DNA of 64,000 nucleotides from an uncultured Armatimonadota bacterium (lineage in GTDB: Bacteria; Armatimonadota; Fimbriimonadia; Fimbriimonadales; Fimbriimonadaceae). The position numbers and the translations under genes were made by a program. Below are positions 40,455 to 47,070 of the stretch, one piece after another. The stretch covers positions 62,001 through 126,000 of the forward strand of contig CAILEM010000010.1 in assembly GCA_903833215.1 (NCBI GenBank). Reading direction: 5' to 3'. Each line of letters opens with the position of its first letter. The first letter of the stretch is position 1. The notes under the pieces are model-generated. The model was not told the origin of the DNA. It worked only from the letters and a program-made list of their open reading frames with translations, and did no database searches.

Positions 40455-41852
40455 ATGCAATCTTTGTCCATAGCTGGAATGATTTTGGCCGCCGGTAAGG
40501 GAACCCGAATGAAATCGGATTTACCCAAGGGCCTCCATCGAATTTGTGGCATCCCGATGGTCGAGCACGTCGCCCGTGCAATGAAGGCTGCCGGTGTCCA
40601 ACGCCCCATCATCATCATCGGACACGGTGGCGAGTTGATTCAAGAAGCCCTTGGCGATGGATATGACTACGCTTGGCAGCACGAACAATTGGGGACGGGT
40701 CACGCTGCGCTGATGGCGAAGGAATTACTGGCGGACCACCATGGTCCTGTCATCGTCGCTGCCGGGGATACGCCCCTGCTTCAGCCCACCATCTTTGCCG
40801 AACTTTTTGAGGCCCATAACTCAGCGGGTGCAGCAATGACGCTGTCATCAAGCATTCTTCCAGATCCAAGTGGCTACGGCCGTATCATTCGGGACAGTGA
40901 AGGAAAACCAACTCGAATCGTGGAGCATAAAGATGCATCGGAGGCGGAACGAGCCGTAAACGAAATTAACGTTGCCCTCTATTGCTTTGATTGCGAGACG
41001 CTTTTCCGAATCCTGCCAACCCTAAGCAACTCCAACGCCCAAGGTGAGTACTACCTTCCCGATGTCTTGGAAGTTATCCAGAAAGAAGGAGGAGTTCTCG
41101 CTGCAAAGGTCTACGAAGACCAAGACGTAACCGTCGGAGTTAACGACCGTTGGCAGCTAGCGCTGGCTGAAAATGAACTTCGAACCCGAATCTTGCAGAG
41201 ACATGCCGTGTCCGGCGTCACGCTGAGAAACATTGACTCCATTTCGATTGACGTTGATGTCACGATCGGGGGTGACGCAGTCATTGAACCTGGCACGATC
41301 TTGACCGGCAAGACATCCATTGGAAGTGGGTGCCAAATTGGACCCTATTCGCGCATCCACAACTCGGTAATTGGTGACGGATCGGCAGTCGTTTCAAGTT
41401 ATGTCGACTCTGCTATCGTCGGTCAGAATGCGGCCATTGGGCCCTTCGCTCACCTCCGGCCCAGGGCCAATATCGGGGACCAAGCAAAGGTCGGCAACTT
41501 CGTTGAGATCAAGAACGCTCAGATTCACGAAGGGGCCAAAGTTAGCCACCTCTCCTATATCGGTGACGCTACTGTGCACGAGGCTGCCAATATTGGCGCT
41601 GGAACCATCACCTGCAACTACGATGGCTTCAATAAGCATCGAACAGAAATTGGTGAAAACGCTTTCGTCGGCTCTCACTCTACTTTGGTCGCGCCGGTGA
41701 AGATTGGCGCGAGAGCCATTATCGCCGCGGGCTCCGTGATCACTCACGATGTTCCAGATGACGCTGCCGCATTTGGGCGCGCAAGGCAAGAAACAAAGGA
41801 AGGTTGGGCAGATCGGTGGCGAAAGATTAAGAAGGCAGCAGGGAAGCAATGA
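40455..41852 (+). CDS. glmU: Bifunctional UDP-GlcNAc pyrophosphorylase / GlcN-1-P acetyltransferase
   Basis: 465 residues from the ATG at 40455 (a GTG at 40431 is in frame). The N-terminal uridyltransferase (1-230) has GMILAAGKGTRMKSDLPKGL and HEQLGTGHAALMA; the C-terminal half is a left-handed beta-helix of hexapeptide repeats with FVEIKNAQIHEGAKVSHLSY and GTITCNYDGFNKH, including the acetyltransferase His. It makes UDP-GlcNAc for peptidoglycan. The stop overlaps the prs start by four bases. Confidence 0.96.
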   Translation: MQSLSIAGMILAAGKGTRMKSDLPKGLHRICGIPMVEHVARAMKAAGVQRPIIIIGHGGELIQEALGDGYDYAWQHEQLGTGHAALMAKELLADHHGPVIVAAGDTPLLQPTIFAELFEAHNSAGAAMTLSSSILPDPSGYGRIIRDSEGKPTRIVEHKDASEAERAVNEINVALYCFDCETLFRILPTLSNSNAQGEYYLPDVLEVIQKEGGVLAAKVYEDQDVTVGVNDRWQLALAENELRTRILQRHAVSGVTLRNIDSISIDVDVTIGGDAVIEPGTILTGKTSIGSGCQIGPYSRIHNSVIGDGSAVVSSYVDSAIVGQNAAIGPFAHLRPRANIGDQAKVGNFVEIKNAQIHEGAKVSHLSYIGDATVHEAANIGAGTITCNYDGFNKHRTEIGENAFVGSHSTLVAPVKIGARAIIAAGSVITHDVPDDAAAFGRARQETKEGWADRWRKIKKAAGKQ

Positions 41853-42814
41853 GTAAACGACTGAGCGGCATGAAATTGTTCTGTGGGAACGCCCACCCGG
41901 AGTTGGGTAGGCGAGTTGCAGCGCAACTCGGAATCGAACTTGGGAAACTAACGACGACGAAGTTCGCCGACGGTGAGATCCGAATCATGATTGAGGAAAG
42001 TGCGCGAGGGAATGAGATTTTTATCCTCCAACCGACGTGTGCTCCCACGAACGACAATGCGATGGAGTTGTTCATCATGCTCGACGCATTCCGCCGAGCG
42101 TCTGCAAGCAGGATCACTGTCGTCATGCCGTATTACGGATATGCGCGTCAGGACAAGAAAATCAAACCGCGTGAGCCCATAACCGCTCGCATGATTGCGA
42201 ATTTCCTTGAAACAAGTGGTGCCGATCGCATTGTTGCCATTGATCTGCACGCTGAGCAGATCCAAGGCTTCTTTAATGTCCCTGTGGATCACCTTTACGG
42301 TGGACCCATTCTTGGCCGCTACTTTGTGGATCGCGGCTTTCACGAGGACAAAGACATTGTCATTGTCAGCCCCGACGTTGCCGGTGTGGGCAGAGCGAAA
42401 GCCTTGGCCGAAATGCTCCGTTGTCCATTCGTTGTCATCGCGAAAAGGCGCCCGGCTCCAAACGTTGTCGAAGTCGTCGAGATCGTTGGAGATTTCGTCG
42501 GTAAAAAATGCGTGATGATCGATGACATGATTGATACCGGTGGATCAATCATCGGCGGTGCGCAGGCCCTTATGGATCGGGGTGCGAGAGAAGTTATCGC
42601 ATGTGGAACGCACGCAGTCTTCAGCCGCGAAGCTCGAAGTCGGCTCCAGGATAGTTGTATTTCAGAAGTCGTGGTTCTTGATACGATTCCAACTCCGCCT
42701 GGAGAGCAATACTCGAAGATAACTGTCCTTCCGTCGGCTCCGCTAATCGCTGATGCGATCCGAAGGATTCATCTCAATGAGTCGGTAAGCGAACTGTTCC
42801 ATGAATGGCGATGA
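41849..42814 (+). CDS. prs: Ribose-phosphate pyrophosphokinase
   Basis: 321 residues, standard size. KLFCGNAHPELGRRVAAQLG starts the fold; FADGEIRIMIEES, MPYYGYARQDKKIKPREPIT (flexible ATP loop with the catalytic Lys/Arg), DLHAEQIQGFF and VMIDDMIDTGGSII (PRPP loop) are all present. It makes PRPP from ribose-5-phosphate and ATP for nucleotide and upp reactions. It is translationally coupled to glmU and overlaps the next gene by 14 bases. Confidence 0.97.
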   Translation: MSKRLSGMKLFCGNAHPELGRRVAAQLGIELGKLTTTKFADGEIRIMIEESARGNEIFILQPTCAPTNDNAMELFIMLDAFRRASASRITVVMPYYGYARQDKKIKPREPITARMIANFLETSGADRIVAIDLHAEQIQGFFNVPVDHLYGGPILGRYFVDRGFHEDKDIVIVSPDVAGVGRAKALAEMLRCPFVVIAKRRPAPNVVEVVEIVGDFVGKKCVMIDDMIDTGGSIIGGAQALMDRGAREVIACGTHAVFSREARSRLQDSCISEVVVLDTIPTPPGEQYSKITVLPSAPLIADAIRRIHLNESVSELFHEWR

Positions 42815-43286
42815 GCCTCAGGAGGGCATAAAACCGCAAGCGTCAGCTTTTCGTTGGCGAGTGCGTCCGGCAGACGCGGATCCTCCGAAAATGCTGGGAA
42901 TTGCCGCCGTAGGAATACTGGCTTTTCTAGCTGGACAATTCCTTTTCGGAAATCCCCTCATGGGGCTCGTTGGTTTTGCTATTATCTTCGGATCGACTGC
43001 AGAATTTTGGCTTGGAACTTCGTTCTCCCTGGATGAAAAAGGGGCGACAATGAAGACCGGTTTCAATATCTCGGCAATCGAGTGGGCGGATGTCAAAAGA
43101 GTCGTTCGCGATTCTCAAGGTATCAAATTGTCTCCTCTGGATAAACCAGGAACTATGGAGGCATTTCGAGGCGTGTATCTGCGATATGGAAAGGACAATC
43201 GAGATAGTATCGAGAGGGCAGTTCTAACTTTTGGACAAATTAGCGACGGAGATGTGGTCGACCGAACTCACGGACGAGGAGACTGA
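42801..43286 (+). CDS. Membrane protein with PH-like domain, first gene of the membrane cluster
   Basis: 161 residues, overlapping prs by 14 bases. Two adjacent hydrophobic helices (about 31-49 and 52-68, LGIAAVGILAFLAGQFLFG and MGLVGFAIIFGSTAEFW) are followed by a soluble beta-rich part (TSFSLDEKGATMKTGFNISA, WADVKRVVRDSQGIKLSPL). This layout resembles small PH/YcxB-like membrane proteins. No precise family is recognised. It starts a run of six genes with little or no spacing. Confidence 0.6.
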   Translation: MNGDEPQEGIKPQASAFRWRVRPADADPPKMLGIAAVGILAFLAGQFLFGNPLMGLVGFAIIFGSTAEFWLGTSFSLDEKGATMKTGFNISAIEWADVKRVVRDSQGIKLSPLDKPGTMEAFRGVYLRYGKDNRDSIERAVLTFGQISDGDVVDRTHGRGD

Positions 43287-43545
43287 CGCCCTGATTGACA
43301 AGGCTGCGGGTGAGGTCGCGAAAAGACATCTCAACACGCCTGCGATTCTCTTCCTAGAGATGCACAAGCCTTTATCTTACATTGGTGCGAACGCTTCGCT
43401 CGTTTTTGCACCATTTGCGGTGCCTTTTCTAGGTTTTGACTTTATAAATGACTATGGCCGACTCTTTTCGAAGCGCGAAAACGTCGAAAAGCTGATTCGG
43501 AAGCTTGAACAACTTTCCAAGCCGACTGCGGCAAAGGACGATTAA
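43252..43545 (+). CDS. Small protein of the membrane cluster
   Basis: 97 residues from the ATG at 43252, with a CGGAG ribosome site; it overlaps the previous gene by 35 bases. The sequence is polar at the start (TELTDEETDALIDKAAGEVA), has one hydrophobic stretch (IGANASLVFAPFAVPFLGF) and a basic coiled tail (RENVEKLIRKLEQL). No known family. Overlap in a different frame with a credible ribosome site supports a coupled gene. Confidence 0.6.
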   Translation: MWSTELTDEETDALIDKAAGEVAKRHLNTPAILFLEMHKPLSYIGANASLVFAPFAVPFLGFDFINDYGRLFSKRENVEKLIRKLEQLSKPTAAKDD

Positions 43546-44489
43546 TGGGAAATCAGTATCTCGATACAGGATGGTTCATGATGGTCCTCACCCTTGTGAT
43601 GGTGAGTCTCATCTTGTACAACATATCCCGCGCTCACGGAGGCAAGGATCTCTACATACGTAGAATCTCAGGTCTCAACGCAATTGACGAGGCAGTTGGA
43701 CGTGCCACAGAAATGGGAAGACCCGTTCTGATGGTTCCTGGCCTAAGCGCAAGCGTCAATGCCAAAACGATGCAGGCGATCAATATCTTCGCCTACGTCA
43801 CTCGTGTTGCGGCCAGGTTTGCGAACCCAATCATGGTCTGTTGTGCAGACGCGACGGTTCTGACGGTTTGCCAAGAAGTTATTCGTGATGTCTATCAGCA
43901 GGAAGGCCTCGCCGATCAGTACGACGTTGACTCCGTACGGTTTATCAGCGATCGTCAGTTCGCTTTTGCCGGTGGCGTCGCCGGGCTTATCCTTCGAGAA
44001 AAGGCTGCTGCTACTTTCTTCCTGGGTGAGTTCTATGCCGAGTCGCTGATTCTCGCTGAGACGGCAAACTCAGTTGGAGCTATCCAAGTTGCAAGCTCAA
44101 CCGAGTTAACACAAACGCCGTTCTTTATCGCCGCCTGTGACTACGTTCTCATCGGAGACGAATACTATGCTGCAAGCGCTTTCTTGACGCGACAACCCGT
44201 GCTTGTTGGCAGCTTAATCGGGCAGGACTGGTGCAAACTCGCGATGATCGCCATGATTCTTTGTGGCACAACCTTCAACTCCATCCAACAGCGAGGAACA
44301 ACGACAACGGAGCACAAAGAAGGGAAGTGGGTTGATTTGCCCAAAGAGAGACTCGTTTTGGCCAAAGACACATTCTTTTCGCGCTTGCTTAAGGCAGATC
44401 CCGAAAAGAACATCAAATTGGATCCGCCACGCGAAAAGCTTCCCCCAGATCAACTTCCTTCCGGCGGCCCTGCAGGAGGTGACAAATGA
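43545..44489 (+). CDS. DUF6754-like membrane-anchored protein
   Basis: 314 residues; the ATG overlaps the previous stop by one base (TAATG). An N-terminal anchor (WFMMVLTLVMVSLILYNI) is followed by GGKDLYIRRISGLNAIDEA, GRPVLMVPGLSASVNAKTMQ and VRFISDRQFAFAGGVAGLIL. A conserved-looking SVGAIQVASSTELTQTPFFI and FIAACDYVLIGDEYYAASAF come before a second membrane helix (KLAMIAMILCGTTF). I believe this is the DUF6754 family, which has no known function. It is probably the core component of the cluster. Confidence 0.65.
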   Translation: MGNQYLDTGWFMMVLTLVMVSLILYNISRAHGGKDLYIRRISGLNAIDEAVGRATEMGRPVLMVPGLSASVNAKTMQAINIFAYVTRVAARFANPIMVCCADATVLTVCQEVIRDVYQQEGLADQYDVDSVRFISDRQFAFAGGVAGLILREKAAATFFLGEFYAESLILAETANSVGAIQVASSTELTQTPFFIAACDYVLIGDEYYAASAFLTRQPVLVGSLIGQDWCKLAMIAMILCGTTFNSIQQRGTTTTEHKEGKWVDLPKERLVLAKDTFFSRLLKADPEKNIKLDPPREKLPPDQLPSGGPAGGDK

Positions 44490-45394
44490 ACCTATTTCTT
44501 CAAGTTGACCCCAAGAGCTTCTGGAATGCCCCTCACGGCTCCACGGAGCTGACGGTTAAGCTATTCGCTGCCTTTATCATCGGTATTGGTATCGCGGTGG
44601 GATTGACCTTTATCCCCGCGCAGTTGAGAAAGTGGGTGGTGCGGTTCGTCACCTTCGGTGCAGGTCTGTTTTATGTCCTGTTCTGGATTTTCCCGCGACC
44701 GATAAGCCGTGCACCAACCGATGCACCTCGGGGAGCGATCGAAGGAATGTCCTTCTGGATCGCAGATTCGCAGCCGGTCATCATGACCCTAACCAACGTT
44801 ATTGCTGGTTTCATGATTGGACTTGGAATCTACTCCCTACTAAGGGTCCATTTCAGCAAGATCGCCAAGCAGCAACGAGACTGGGCATTTAGTGCAGTGC
44901 TCGTAATCAGCATGCTGTTGATGGTCACTTTGGGATATGCCGACTTTTTGCAGCGCCAGGATCCAGCGAATTTTGGACTGGCCGATCAGAAAAACTGGGG
45001 ATTGGTCAACTACGGTAAGGACCTCTTGTTCGATGGTCTCTTGCAGAACATGGACGCCGGCATGTTCTCAATCGTCGCGTTCTACATCATGTCCGCTGCG
45101 TACCGAGCATTCCGAGCCCGATCGATTGAGGCAACGATTCTCTTGGTCACAGCATTGATCGTGATGTTGAGTCTGATGGGAGTTGTCGAGTTTATGTGGA
45201 GTGGAGCCATCGATTCCATCAGCAAGGATAACGGCTTGATCCAGAGCTTTAAGTTGAGTGCCATCTCAGGGTGGCTGAAGGGCACCATTCAAACACCGGC
45301 AATTCGCGGAATTGACTTCGGTGTCGGTATTGGTTTGCTGGCGATGGGCCTCAGGCTGTGGTTAAGCCTCGAAAAGACTGGAGGTGAGGCGTAA
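44486..45394 (+). CDS. Polytopic membrane protein of the cluster
   Basis: 302 residues, about seven hydrophobic helices (for example LFAAFIIGIGIAVGLTFI, VIMTLTNVIAGFMIGLGIY, AVLVISMLLMVTLGYADFL and TILLVTALIVMLSLMGVVEF). It starts by ATGA overlap with the DUF6754-like gene and stops by one-base overlap (TAATG) with the next. No transporter signature is recognised. It probably forms the membrane scaffold of the predicted complex. Confidence 0.65.
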   Translation: MNLFLQVDPKSFWNAPHGSTELTVKLFAAFIIGIGIAVGLTFIPAQLRKWVVRFVTFGAGLFYVLFWIFPRPISRAPTDAPRGAIEGMSFWIADSQPVIMTLTNVIAGFMIGLGIYSLLRVHFSKIAKQQRDWAFSAVLVISMLLMVTLGYADFLQRQDPANFGLADQKNWGLVNYGKDLLFDGLLQNMDAGMFSIVAFYIMSAAYRAFRARSIEATILLVTALIVMLSLMGVVEFMWSGAIDSISKDNGLIQSFKLSAISGWLKGTIQTPAIRGIDFGVGIGLLAMGLRLWLSLEKTGGEA

Positions 45395-46356
45395 TGGCTA
45401 TGGACCAGCAAGCGGCCCCTTTGACTCTAGCTGAGAAGCTACAGTCGCTTCCGAAGCCGATGATCTACGGCATCCTTCTTGTCGTCGCGACGATTCCGCT
45501 TTTCTTTTCGGTGAAGCTTCCAAACAAGTGCATCGATCCGAGCATCGATTTCTATGCGCAAGCGATGAAACTGCCGGACGGCTCCAAGGTCATCATTTGT
45601 TCCGACTGGACCAACTCGACACGAGGCGAGAGCAAGGGCGAAATGGAGGCCCTGCTCAGAATTTTGATGCGCAAGAACATCAAGTTCGTACTCCTCTCAA
45701 TCGGCGATCCGCAGGCTCCCCAAGTTGCCAAGGATACGATTCGCGAGGTCACCAGCGCTGAAGAACTACACGGTGGAAAGCACTATAAGGAGTTTGAAGA
45801 CTACGTCAACCTGGGCTATTTCCCATCTGGCGAAGGAACAATCGTCTCCATCAACAACAATGTTCGTTCGGTTGCTCAGGGCAAGAAGGATTTTCCTGAA
45901 GGCTCGGGTCCGAAGGATGCTCTGCAATCACCGGTATTTGAAGGCATCAAGTCAGTATCCGACTTCAAAATGTTCTTCCTGGTCACAGCCTCAAGCACCA
46001 ACCGAACGGTTCTTGAGCGATTGACCAACTGCCCCATGATGTATATGGTCTCTGGAGTTATGGTTCCGGAGAACACGTCGTACTACGCTTCGGGTCAGCT
46101 TAAAGGCTTGTGTGGCGGCGTAAAGGGCGTCTATGACTTGGAAAATCTGATGGAGGTCGGAATCAATAATCCAGGCCCAGGACAGATCACTTCCGATAAG
46201 TACAAGGGAGAAAGCATCCCTGGATGGCCAGGCAAGACGAACACAGGTAAGGGCACGGCCTACTACCTTGCGCTTCACTTCACCCTCGCCTTGCTGATTA
46301 TCGCCGTCATCGTCGGCAACCTTGGAATGTATCTGTCCAAGCGGAGGGCGAACTAA
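45394..46356 (+). CDS. Membrane-anchored extracytoplasmic protein of the cluster
   Basis: 320 residues. One helix near the start (MIYGILLVVATIPLFFSV) and one at the end (LHFTLALLIIAVIVGNLGMY) bracket a soluble domain of about 230 residues. The domain begins DPSIDFYAQAMKLPDGSKVI and contains GESKGEMEALLRILMRKNIK, KHYKEFEDYVNLGYFPSGEG and YYASGQLKGLCGGVKGVYDL. I recognise no fold by eye, although the alternating strands and helices look Rossmann-like. It is the most distinctive soluble part of the cluster. Confidence 0.6.
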   Translation: MAMDQQAAPLTLAEKLQSLPKPMIYGILLVVATIPLFFSVKLPNKCIDPSIDFYAQAMKLPDGSKVIICSDWTNSTRGESKGEMEALLRILMRKNIKFVLLSIGDPQAPQVAKDTIREVTSAEELHGGKHYKEFEDYVNLGYFPSGEGTIVSINNNVRSVAQGKKDFPEGSGPKDALQSPVFEGIKSVSDFKMFFLVTASSTNRTVLERLTNCPMMYMVSGVMVPENTSYYASGQLKGLCGGVKGVYDLENLMEVGINNPGPGQITSDKYKGESIPGWPGKTNTGKGTAYYLALHFTLALLIIAVIVGNLGMYLSKRRAN

Positions 46357-46359
46357 GCC

Positions 46360-47070
46360 ATGGACTATTCACTGCTTAAGCAATTCGTCGCGGTTACTGC
46401 TACGGTAGGGTTATATTCTGTCCTTTATAAGGAAAATAAGTTCTACCGGTTTTGGGAGCATGTGTTCCTTGGATTGGCTTCTGGTTGGGCTCTAGTTATT
46501 CTCTGGACGGACGTTTTGAAGTCTGGCTGGTACGAGAAGATGCTCGGCGCCTCCGCCGCTGACGGCAACACCGCCGTCATGGGTTACTGGCCCTATATGT
46601 TCCTTTTGCCGATCGGCTTGATGGCATATACGGTCTTTAACAAGAAACACAACTGGCTTAGTCGCATTCCGATTGGCATCATCCTCGGTCTGTATTCCGG
46701 CCAGCAGTTCAGCGCCTGGATGACGTACTACGGGCCGCTCCTTAACGACTCAATGAAACCCATCGTGCCGAACACGGCCGAGTTCTTCCATCCGGCAACG
46801 GTCGTTCCAGGGACAGTCTATGTATCCGATGCGTTGACGAACCTGATCGCCCTCTTGACGGTCATCTCCGTTCTAACCTACTTCCTCTTCAGCTTCGATG
46901 TGAAGAGCAAGGTTCTGCACGCAACTTCGACGACGGGACGTTGGCTGTTGATGATCGGCTTTGGTGCCATCTTTGGCTCCACGGTTATGATGCGATTTAC
47001 GCTCCTCATCGACCGCATGTATTTCATCTGGATCGAATTCGTGAAACAGGGCCTTCTTCATATGAAATAG
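46360..47070 (+). CDS. Polytopic membrane protein, last gene of the cluster
   Basis: 236 residues, starting three bases after the previous stop. There are about six hydrophobic segments (for example FVAVTATVGLYSVLY, VFLGLASGWALVILWTDV and LIALLTVISVLTYFLFSF). It ends with MYFIWIEFVKQGLLHMK. No family is recognised. A hairpin at 47071 right after the stop marks the end of the unit. Confidence 0.65.
   Translation: MDYSLLKQFVAVTATVGLYSVLYKENKFYRFWEHVFLGLASGWALVILWTDVLKSGWYEKMLGASAADGNTAVMGYWPYMFLLPIGLMAYTVFNKKHNWLSRIPIGIILGLYSGQQFSAWMTYYGPLLNDSMKPIVPNTAEFFHPATVVPGTVYVSDALTNLIALLTVISVLTYFLFSFDVKSKVLHATSTTGRWLLMIGFGAIFGSTVMMRFTLLIDRMYFIWIEFVKQGLLHMK

Follow-up and report, generated by a model that had tools for sequence, protein, structure and literature searches.

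The window analysed here, the whole stretch of 64,000 nt, comes from an uncultured Armatimonadota bacterium (Fimbriimonadaceae; assembly GCA_903833215.1, contig CAILEM010000010.1, positions 62,001 to 126,000). It carries a cluster of six genes, called A to F below:

Gene A, 42801-43286, + strand: ORF of 161 aa, with two hydrophobic helices at the N-terminus and then a short C-terminal domain.
Gene B, 43252-43545, + strand: ORF of 97 aa, a small protein with the motif P-A-x-L-F-L-E-x-x-K-P-L.
Gene C, 43545-44489, + strand: 314 aa, DUF6754, with a TM helix, a cytosolic Rossmann-like domain and a second TM helix.
Gene D, 44486-45394, + strand: 302 aa, polytopic, with seven hydrophobic segments (predicted topology and alignment).
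Gene E, 45394-46356, + strand: 320 aa, with a TM anchor at either end of an extracytoplasmic alpha/beta domain of about 250 residues.
Gene F, 46360-47070, + strand: 236 aa, polytopic, with six hydrophobic segments (predicted topology and alignment).

The six overlapping forward-strand ORFs listed in an earlier note on this DNA are present at these places. A and B overlap by 35 nt, B and C by 1 nt, C and D by 4 nt, and D and E by 1 nt, while a 3-nt gap separates E from F. The start of B is most likely the ATG at 43252, with a longer alternative from a TTG at 43231. There is also a 14-nt overlap between gene A and the 3' end of prs (41849-42814), and the context glmU-prs-[ABCDEF]-recO is kept in many Fimbriimonadales loci; this overlap and the kept context suggest translational coupling of the cluster to the UDP-GlcNAc/PRPP genes. 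Comparison of A to F with locus L031 gave pS values of 0.65 to 0.76, near saturation, and pN values of 0.13 to 0.26. Judging from these values, all six genes are under strong purifying selection. Since this selection is accompanied by same-order orthologues in dozens of loci, the six ORFs are not chance.

Only C matched a known family in Pfam scans. Called DUF6754-like beforehand, it proved to be a full-length member of PF20539 (E=5.7e-93, 311 bits for a cut-off of 27, profile positions 11 to 253 of 257), a family with no assigned function. The scans gave no convincing match for A, B, D, E and F, and nothing usable came from a NCBIfam scan of A to F. The PH-like character ascribed to A stands only weakly, bPH_6 (Pfam) being found in just 2 of 25 A homologues (E=9e-4) and the likeness being otherwise judged by eye. 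In almost every long Armatimonadota locus, an orthologue of A immediately precedes B. B itself, with no Pfam or NCBIfam match, forms a conserved family in the alignment of its homologues. A Pfam scan of 44 homologues of D, which in other phyla is shorter (about 205 to 230 aa), showed no consistent family; a single member matched archaeal DUF373 (E=0.006), which was not repeated over the 44 homologues and was set aside as chance. F homologues had no family match in their Pfam scan, and the comparison of D and F as homologues of each other was negative. In the alignments, invariant polar residues were found at R39, R53, E56, E172, Q181, Q190, C198, D199, E206 and D228 of C, suggesting a ligand or interaction site, and at E79 and Q235 of E. 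The conserved polar residues of both proteins are also compatible with a role in ligand binding, enzyme activity or transport.

Topology was predicted from hydrophobicity and positive-inside counts. C has its predicted N-terminus outside and its Rossmann-like domain in the cytosol, followed by the second TM; E has a short N-terminus inside, its domain of about 250 residues outside, and then its second TM. The arrangement proposed for E in the earlier note, two anchors holding an extracytoplasmic domain (there put at 230 residues), agrees with this prediction, as do the seven helices of D and the polytopic nature of F, for which six segments are predicted. C homologues in other phyla have an extracytoplasmic N-terminus with signal/FN3-like (or LysM) regions: the FN3-like repeats were judged from sequence, and LysM occurs there in one homologue. 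A TolB-like propeller is inserted in an outside loop of D at locus L103, and a PQQ-like insert is found in F at locus L162. The LysM, TolB-like and PQQ-like inserts all fall within predicted outside segments, and LysM is a peptidoglycan-binding domain; these inserted domains of relatives therefore support both the predicted topology and an envelope role, and the envelope location first proposed is borne out at the level of prediction. A weak match to a glycosidase-type beta-propeller was seen in D of L011, and D of L006 looked similar by eye.

AlphaFold2 models of C (pLDDT 85.6) and E (pLDDT 95.5, pTM 0.91) read alike, with a TM, a helix, six beta-alpha units and a TM, on opposite sides of the membrane. 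PDB fold searches of C and E gave no match at E <0.001, only generic Rossmann-like hits with a TM-score to the query of at most about 0.32. Candidate fold relatives were rejected as such generic matches or as artefacts, e.g., fusion-protein GPCR entries. The top fold match of C, a weak one, was an RCK gating domain, and sequence-profile searches of the PDB found no relatives. When C and E were compared by hhalign, they gave the best score of 12 comparisons with strands in register (P=0.009, one pair), and full profiles gave P=0.055. Homology of C and E is on these profiles suggestive only.

DUF6754 is found in 52/52 good genomes of the nearest relatives, 128 of the 141 good Armatimonadota genomes, 13/14 genomes of the group containing Coatesbacteria records and all 25 Poribacteria, and is absent from 14/14 well-known control genomes. 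A gene-order survey by iterated profile searches, over 110 and then 165 loci, showed that the order A-B-C-D-E-F is kept across Armatimonadota, so that the loss of gene order in relatives, which by the earlier note would refute its proposal, was not seen. The order C-D-E-F is kept in Coatesbacteria, Poribacteria and Fermentibacteria at 20 to 35% identity (about 20 to 25% for E and 26 to 35% for D, relative to the window proteins). The flanks glmU-prs and recO are conserved within the window's own family and not in other phyla, where the neighbours of the cluster included no recurrent gene and gave no consistent functional hint.

In some genomes CDEF is duplicated as a block. Extra copies of E only were observed at five loci (L136, L137, L138, L146 and L155), with up to three E-type genes per locus, and the envelope-facing part E seems to diversify independently. 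Second or third CDEF copies lacking A and B occur at L161, L162 (genome G012) and L164 (genome G019); in the L162 and L164 copies, D and F are enlarged by extra outside domains (PQQ-like in F). These three copies are possibly a specialised paralogous system.

The earlier note had taken the six genes for the whole machine, which fell short: two more, M and K, also belong to it and are unlinked to the cluster in the window's genome. An operon A-B-M-K-C-D-E-F occurs in deep Armatimonadota (L147, L149, L152-L154, L158 and L159) and in Fermentibacteria (L128), and Coatesbacteria-type genomes have the order CDEF-B-M-K-CDEF, in which B adjoins M. In the window's genome, M lies on another contig (C120, 26005-27504; locus L179, L179:8664-10529), and so does K (C138, 1903-3012). 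M was present in 13/13 relatives and K in 20 of 21, unlinked to the cluster there, and K was found in 24/25 Poribacteria.

M, of about 600 aa, is a predicted ATPase of ASKHA type from the MutL/GlmL superfamily. It matches PF13941 (MutL/GlmL) over its full length (E=7e-128, 427.6 bits, cut-off 27; E=2.2e-131 for the copy of the window's genome) and keeps the nucleotide-site signatures DCGSTTTKA, GVDIGGATTDV and LIGSGG(V)LSHAPR. K, of about 375 aa, shows in most members a sub-threshold similarity to RnfC_N/NqrA_N/Biotin_lipoyl barrel-sandwich domains and has a KOW-like end; its alignment shows neither an invariant Cys nor a lipoyl/biotinyl Lys motif. Mean column identity is 62% for M and 60% for K versus 26 to 32% for C-F, which makes M and K the best-conserved components of the system, far ahead of the membrane parts. 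Both were single in the loci examined, unlike CDEF or E; because CDEF and E duplicate while M and K remain single, a common motor (M/K) serving variable membrane and outer parts is suggested. Among plasmid records, C was found in none, and for M only true GlmL relatives were found.

M homologues in other genomes carry record names such as glutamate mutase L or GlmL. M shares the PF13941 match and the ASKHA signatures with the GlmL/MutL family, but annotated GlmL proteins (Peptoclostridium and others) are only about 29% identical to M and about 115 residues shorter, and GlmL is an accessory of B12-dependent glutamate mutase. M scored below the NCBIfam GlmL cut-offs (231.7 of 475 bits for NF040745, 164.9 of 204 for TIGR01319), and the catalytic E subunit of glutamate mutase, PF06368, was detected in 0/21 relatives searched. 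A role of M as glutamate mutase accessory was rejected on the absence of PF06368 from these 21 genomes, and the name "glutamate mutase L" is very likely wrong for M in these phyla.

Co-loss was analysed in good-quality Armatimonadota genomes, 12 without DUF6754 and 12 with it, in which M, K and E were searched. All 12 genomes with C also had M, K and E, and 9 of the 12 without C had none of the three. The remaining 3 (G082, G112 and G160) keep M and K; these assemblies are fragmented (440 to 1060 contigs), and C is likely missing from them through a missing contig. If genomes are treated as independent, the Fisher probability of the resulting M/K table (12:0 vs 3:9) is near 2e-4, but the number of independent losses is only about four to six, spread over families f1, f9, f12 and f14. 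In genome G081 of family f12, a distance of 1.45 Mb separates M/K from E, which means that the loss in f12 took two unlinked loci at once. This co-loss of unlinked M/K with C/E is the strongest functional link found. The eight genes are inherited as a unit, kept or lost together in nearly all Armatimonadota and in several other poorly known phyla.

A to F are shown to be the membrane module (C, D, E and F) and two accessories (A and B) of an eight-gene system that includes M and K. That the cluster forms one functional unit, as the earlier note proposed, is upheld by the gene order over several phyla, the duplication of CDEF as a block and the co-loss with unlinked genes. Profile searches placed the genes in no known system for transport, secretion or cell division; the suggestion that this is no described system also holds for Pfam, NCBIfam, the PDB and the papers searched (open-access PMC). 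In that open-access subset, no paper named DUF6754, PF20539 or PF13941, and related terms gave nothing relevant.

Several known machines bear comparison. In PilM-PilNOP and GspL-GspM, an ASKHA-fold cytosolic ATPase stands beside inner-membrane proteins with periplasmic domains. The architecture of M with C-F would be similar to these type IV pilus and type II secretion assemblies by analogy, but M belongs to PF13941, not to PilM, and A-F and their homologues had no Pfam match to PilN/PilO/PilP or GspL/GspM. Rnf and Na+-NQR share with the system several polytopic subunits and the weak RnfC_N/NqrA_N-type barrel-sandwich match of K; unlike them, K has no Fe-S cysteines, and Pfam scans of C-F homologues matched no Rnf or Nqr subunit. 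The cluster contains no separate TolQ, TolR, TolA, TolB or Pal genes, the TolB-like propeller being present only in D of L103, and no ABC or secretion ATPase or permease was matched by A-F, M or K.

We infer that the eight proteins may form an ATP-powered inner-membrane complex that passes a conformational change to the envelope, a function to which we give slightly less than even confidence. M and K would be the cytosolic motor and adaptor, docking on C at its Rossmann-like domain in the cytosol; the polytopic D and F would make up the membrane core, and the parts facing the envelope would be E and the N-terminus of C, which points outward. Through C/D/F, the ATP-driven motion of M would be relayed to E. 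The output would be an envelope component that is positioned, assembled or moved, most likely a glycan-related one, judging from a few decorated homologues. By analogy, the working mode may resemble that of the ASKHA-coupled PilM or FtsA membrane complexes, with homology to neither. A bolder form of this proposal, tentative and on balance doubtful, is an undescribed class of trans-envelope machine, in which the GlmL-like actin-fold ATPase M would drive a membrane core held between two Rossmann-like domains alike in topology, that of C inside and that of E outside. If true, nearly all members of several diderm phyla that have no studied model organism would carry a machine of this class. The mechanism class itself may still prove familiar.

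The same parts could instead compose a membrane transporter or flippase, with D/F as the path, C (inside) and E (outside) binding the substrate or gating, and M/K as an ATP-dependent driver or regulator. Two polytopic proteins combined with opposite-facing alpha/beta domains rich in invariant polar residues would suit such a device, as would the weak RCK gating match of C, and the multiplication of CDEF sets or of E alone in some genomes is what differing substrates would lead one to expect. This is nevertheless rather unlikely, since D and F resemble no transporter family, the set has no ABC or P-type ATPase, and there is no PDB relative. A membrane-bound enzyme complex is slightly less likely still: it would be activated or reactivated by its ASKHA partner, like 2-hydroxyacyl-CoA dehydratases and B12 mutases, with K providing a barrel-sandwich as in NqrA, RnfC and lipoyl proteins. 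The GlmL/hydantoinase-like superfamily of M, the resemblance of K to RnfC_N/NQRA_N/Biotin_lipoyl in most members and the strong conservation of both agree with it, but the glutamate mutase E subunit is missing in 21/21 relatives, M lies far under the GlmL equivalog cut-off (232 vs 475 bits), K lacks both the invariant Cys and the lipoyl/biotinyl Lys motif, and the operon encodes no flavin or Fe-S protein. That unrelated membrane proteins are kept together for expression only, in a housekeeping operon whose flanks glmU-prs and recO are likewise conserved in the family, is very improbable, as the order persists in several phyla at 20 to 35% identity although the flanks differ, CDEF is duplicated as a block, and M and K, often unlinked, disappear along with C and E in four families or more.

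It is uncommon for a near-universal gene set to lack an assigned role. Because it spans Armatimonadota, Poribacteria, Coatesbacteria and Fermentibacteria, the eight-gene set probably serves a core function in the envelope of diderm lineages for which no laboratory model exists. It offers a concrete target for function finding, with eight defined proteins, a candidate motor in M and some cultured Armatimonadota.

Some survey loci disagree with the titles of their records. Those titled Methanoregulaceae archaeon and Actinomycetota (L067 and L108) have clusters of clearly Armatimonadota type, and these bins are probably mislabelled or mixed. Two others with the title Zixibacteriota, L101 and L106, are similar to the Coatesbacteria group.
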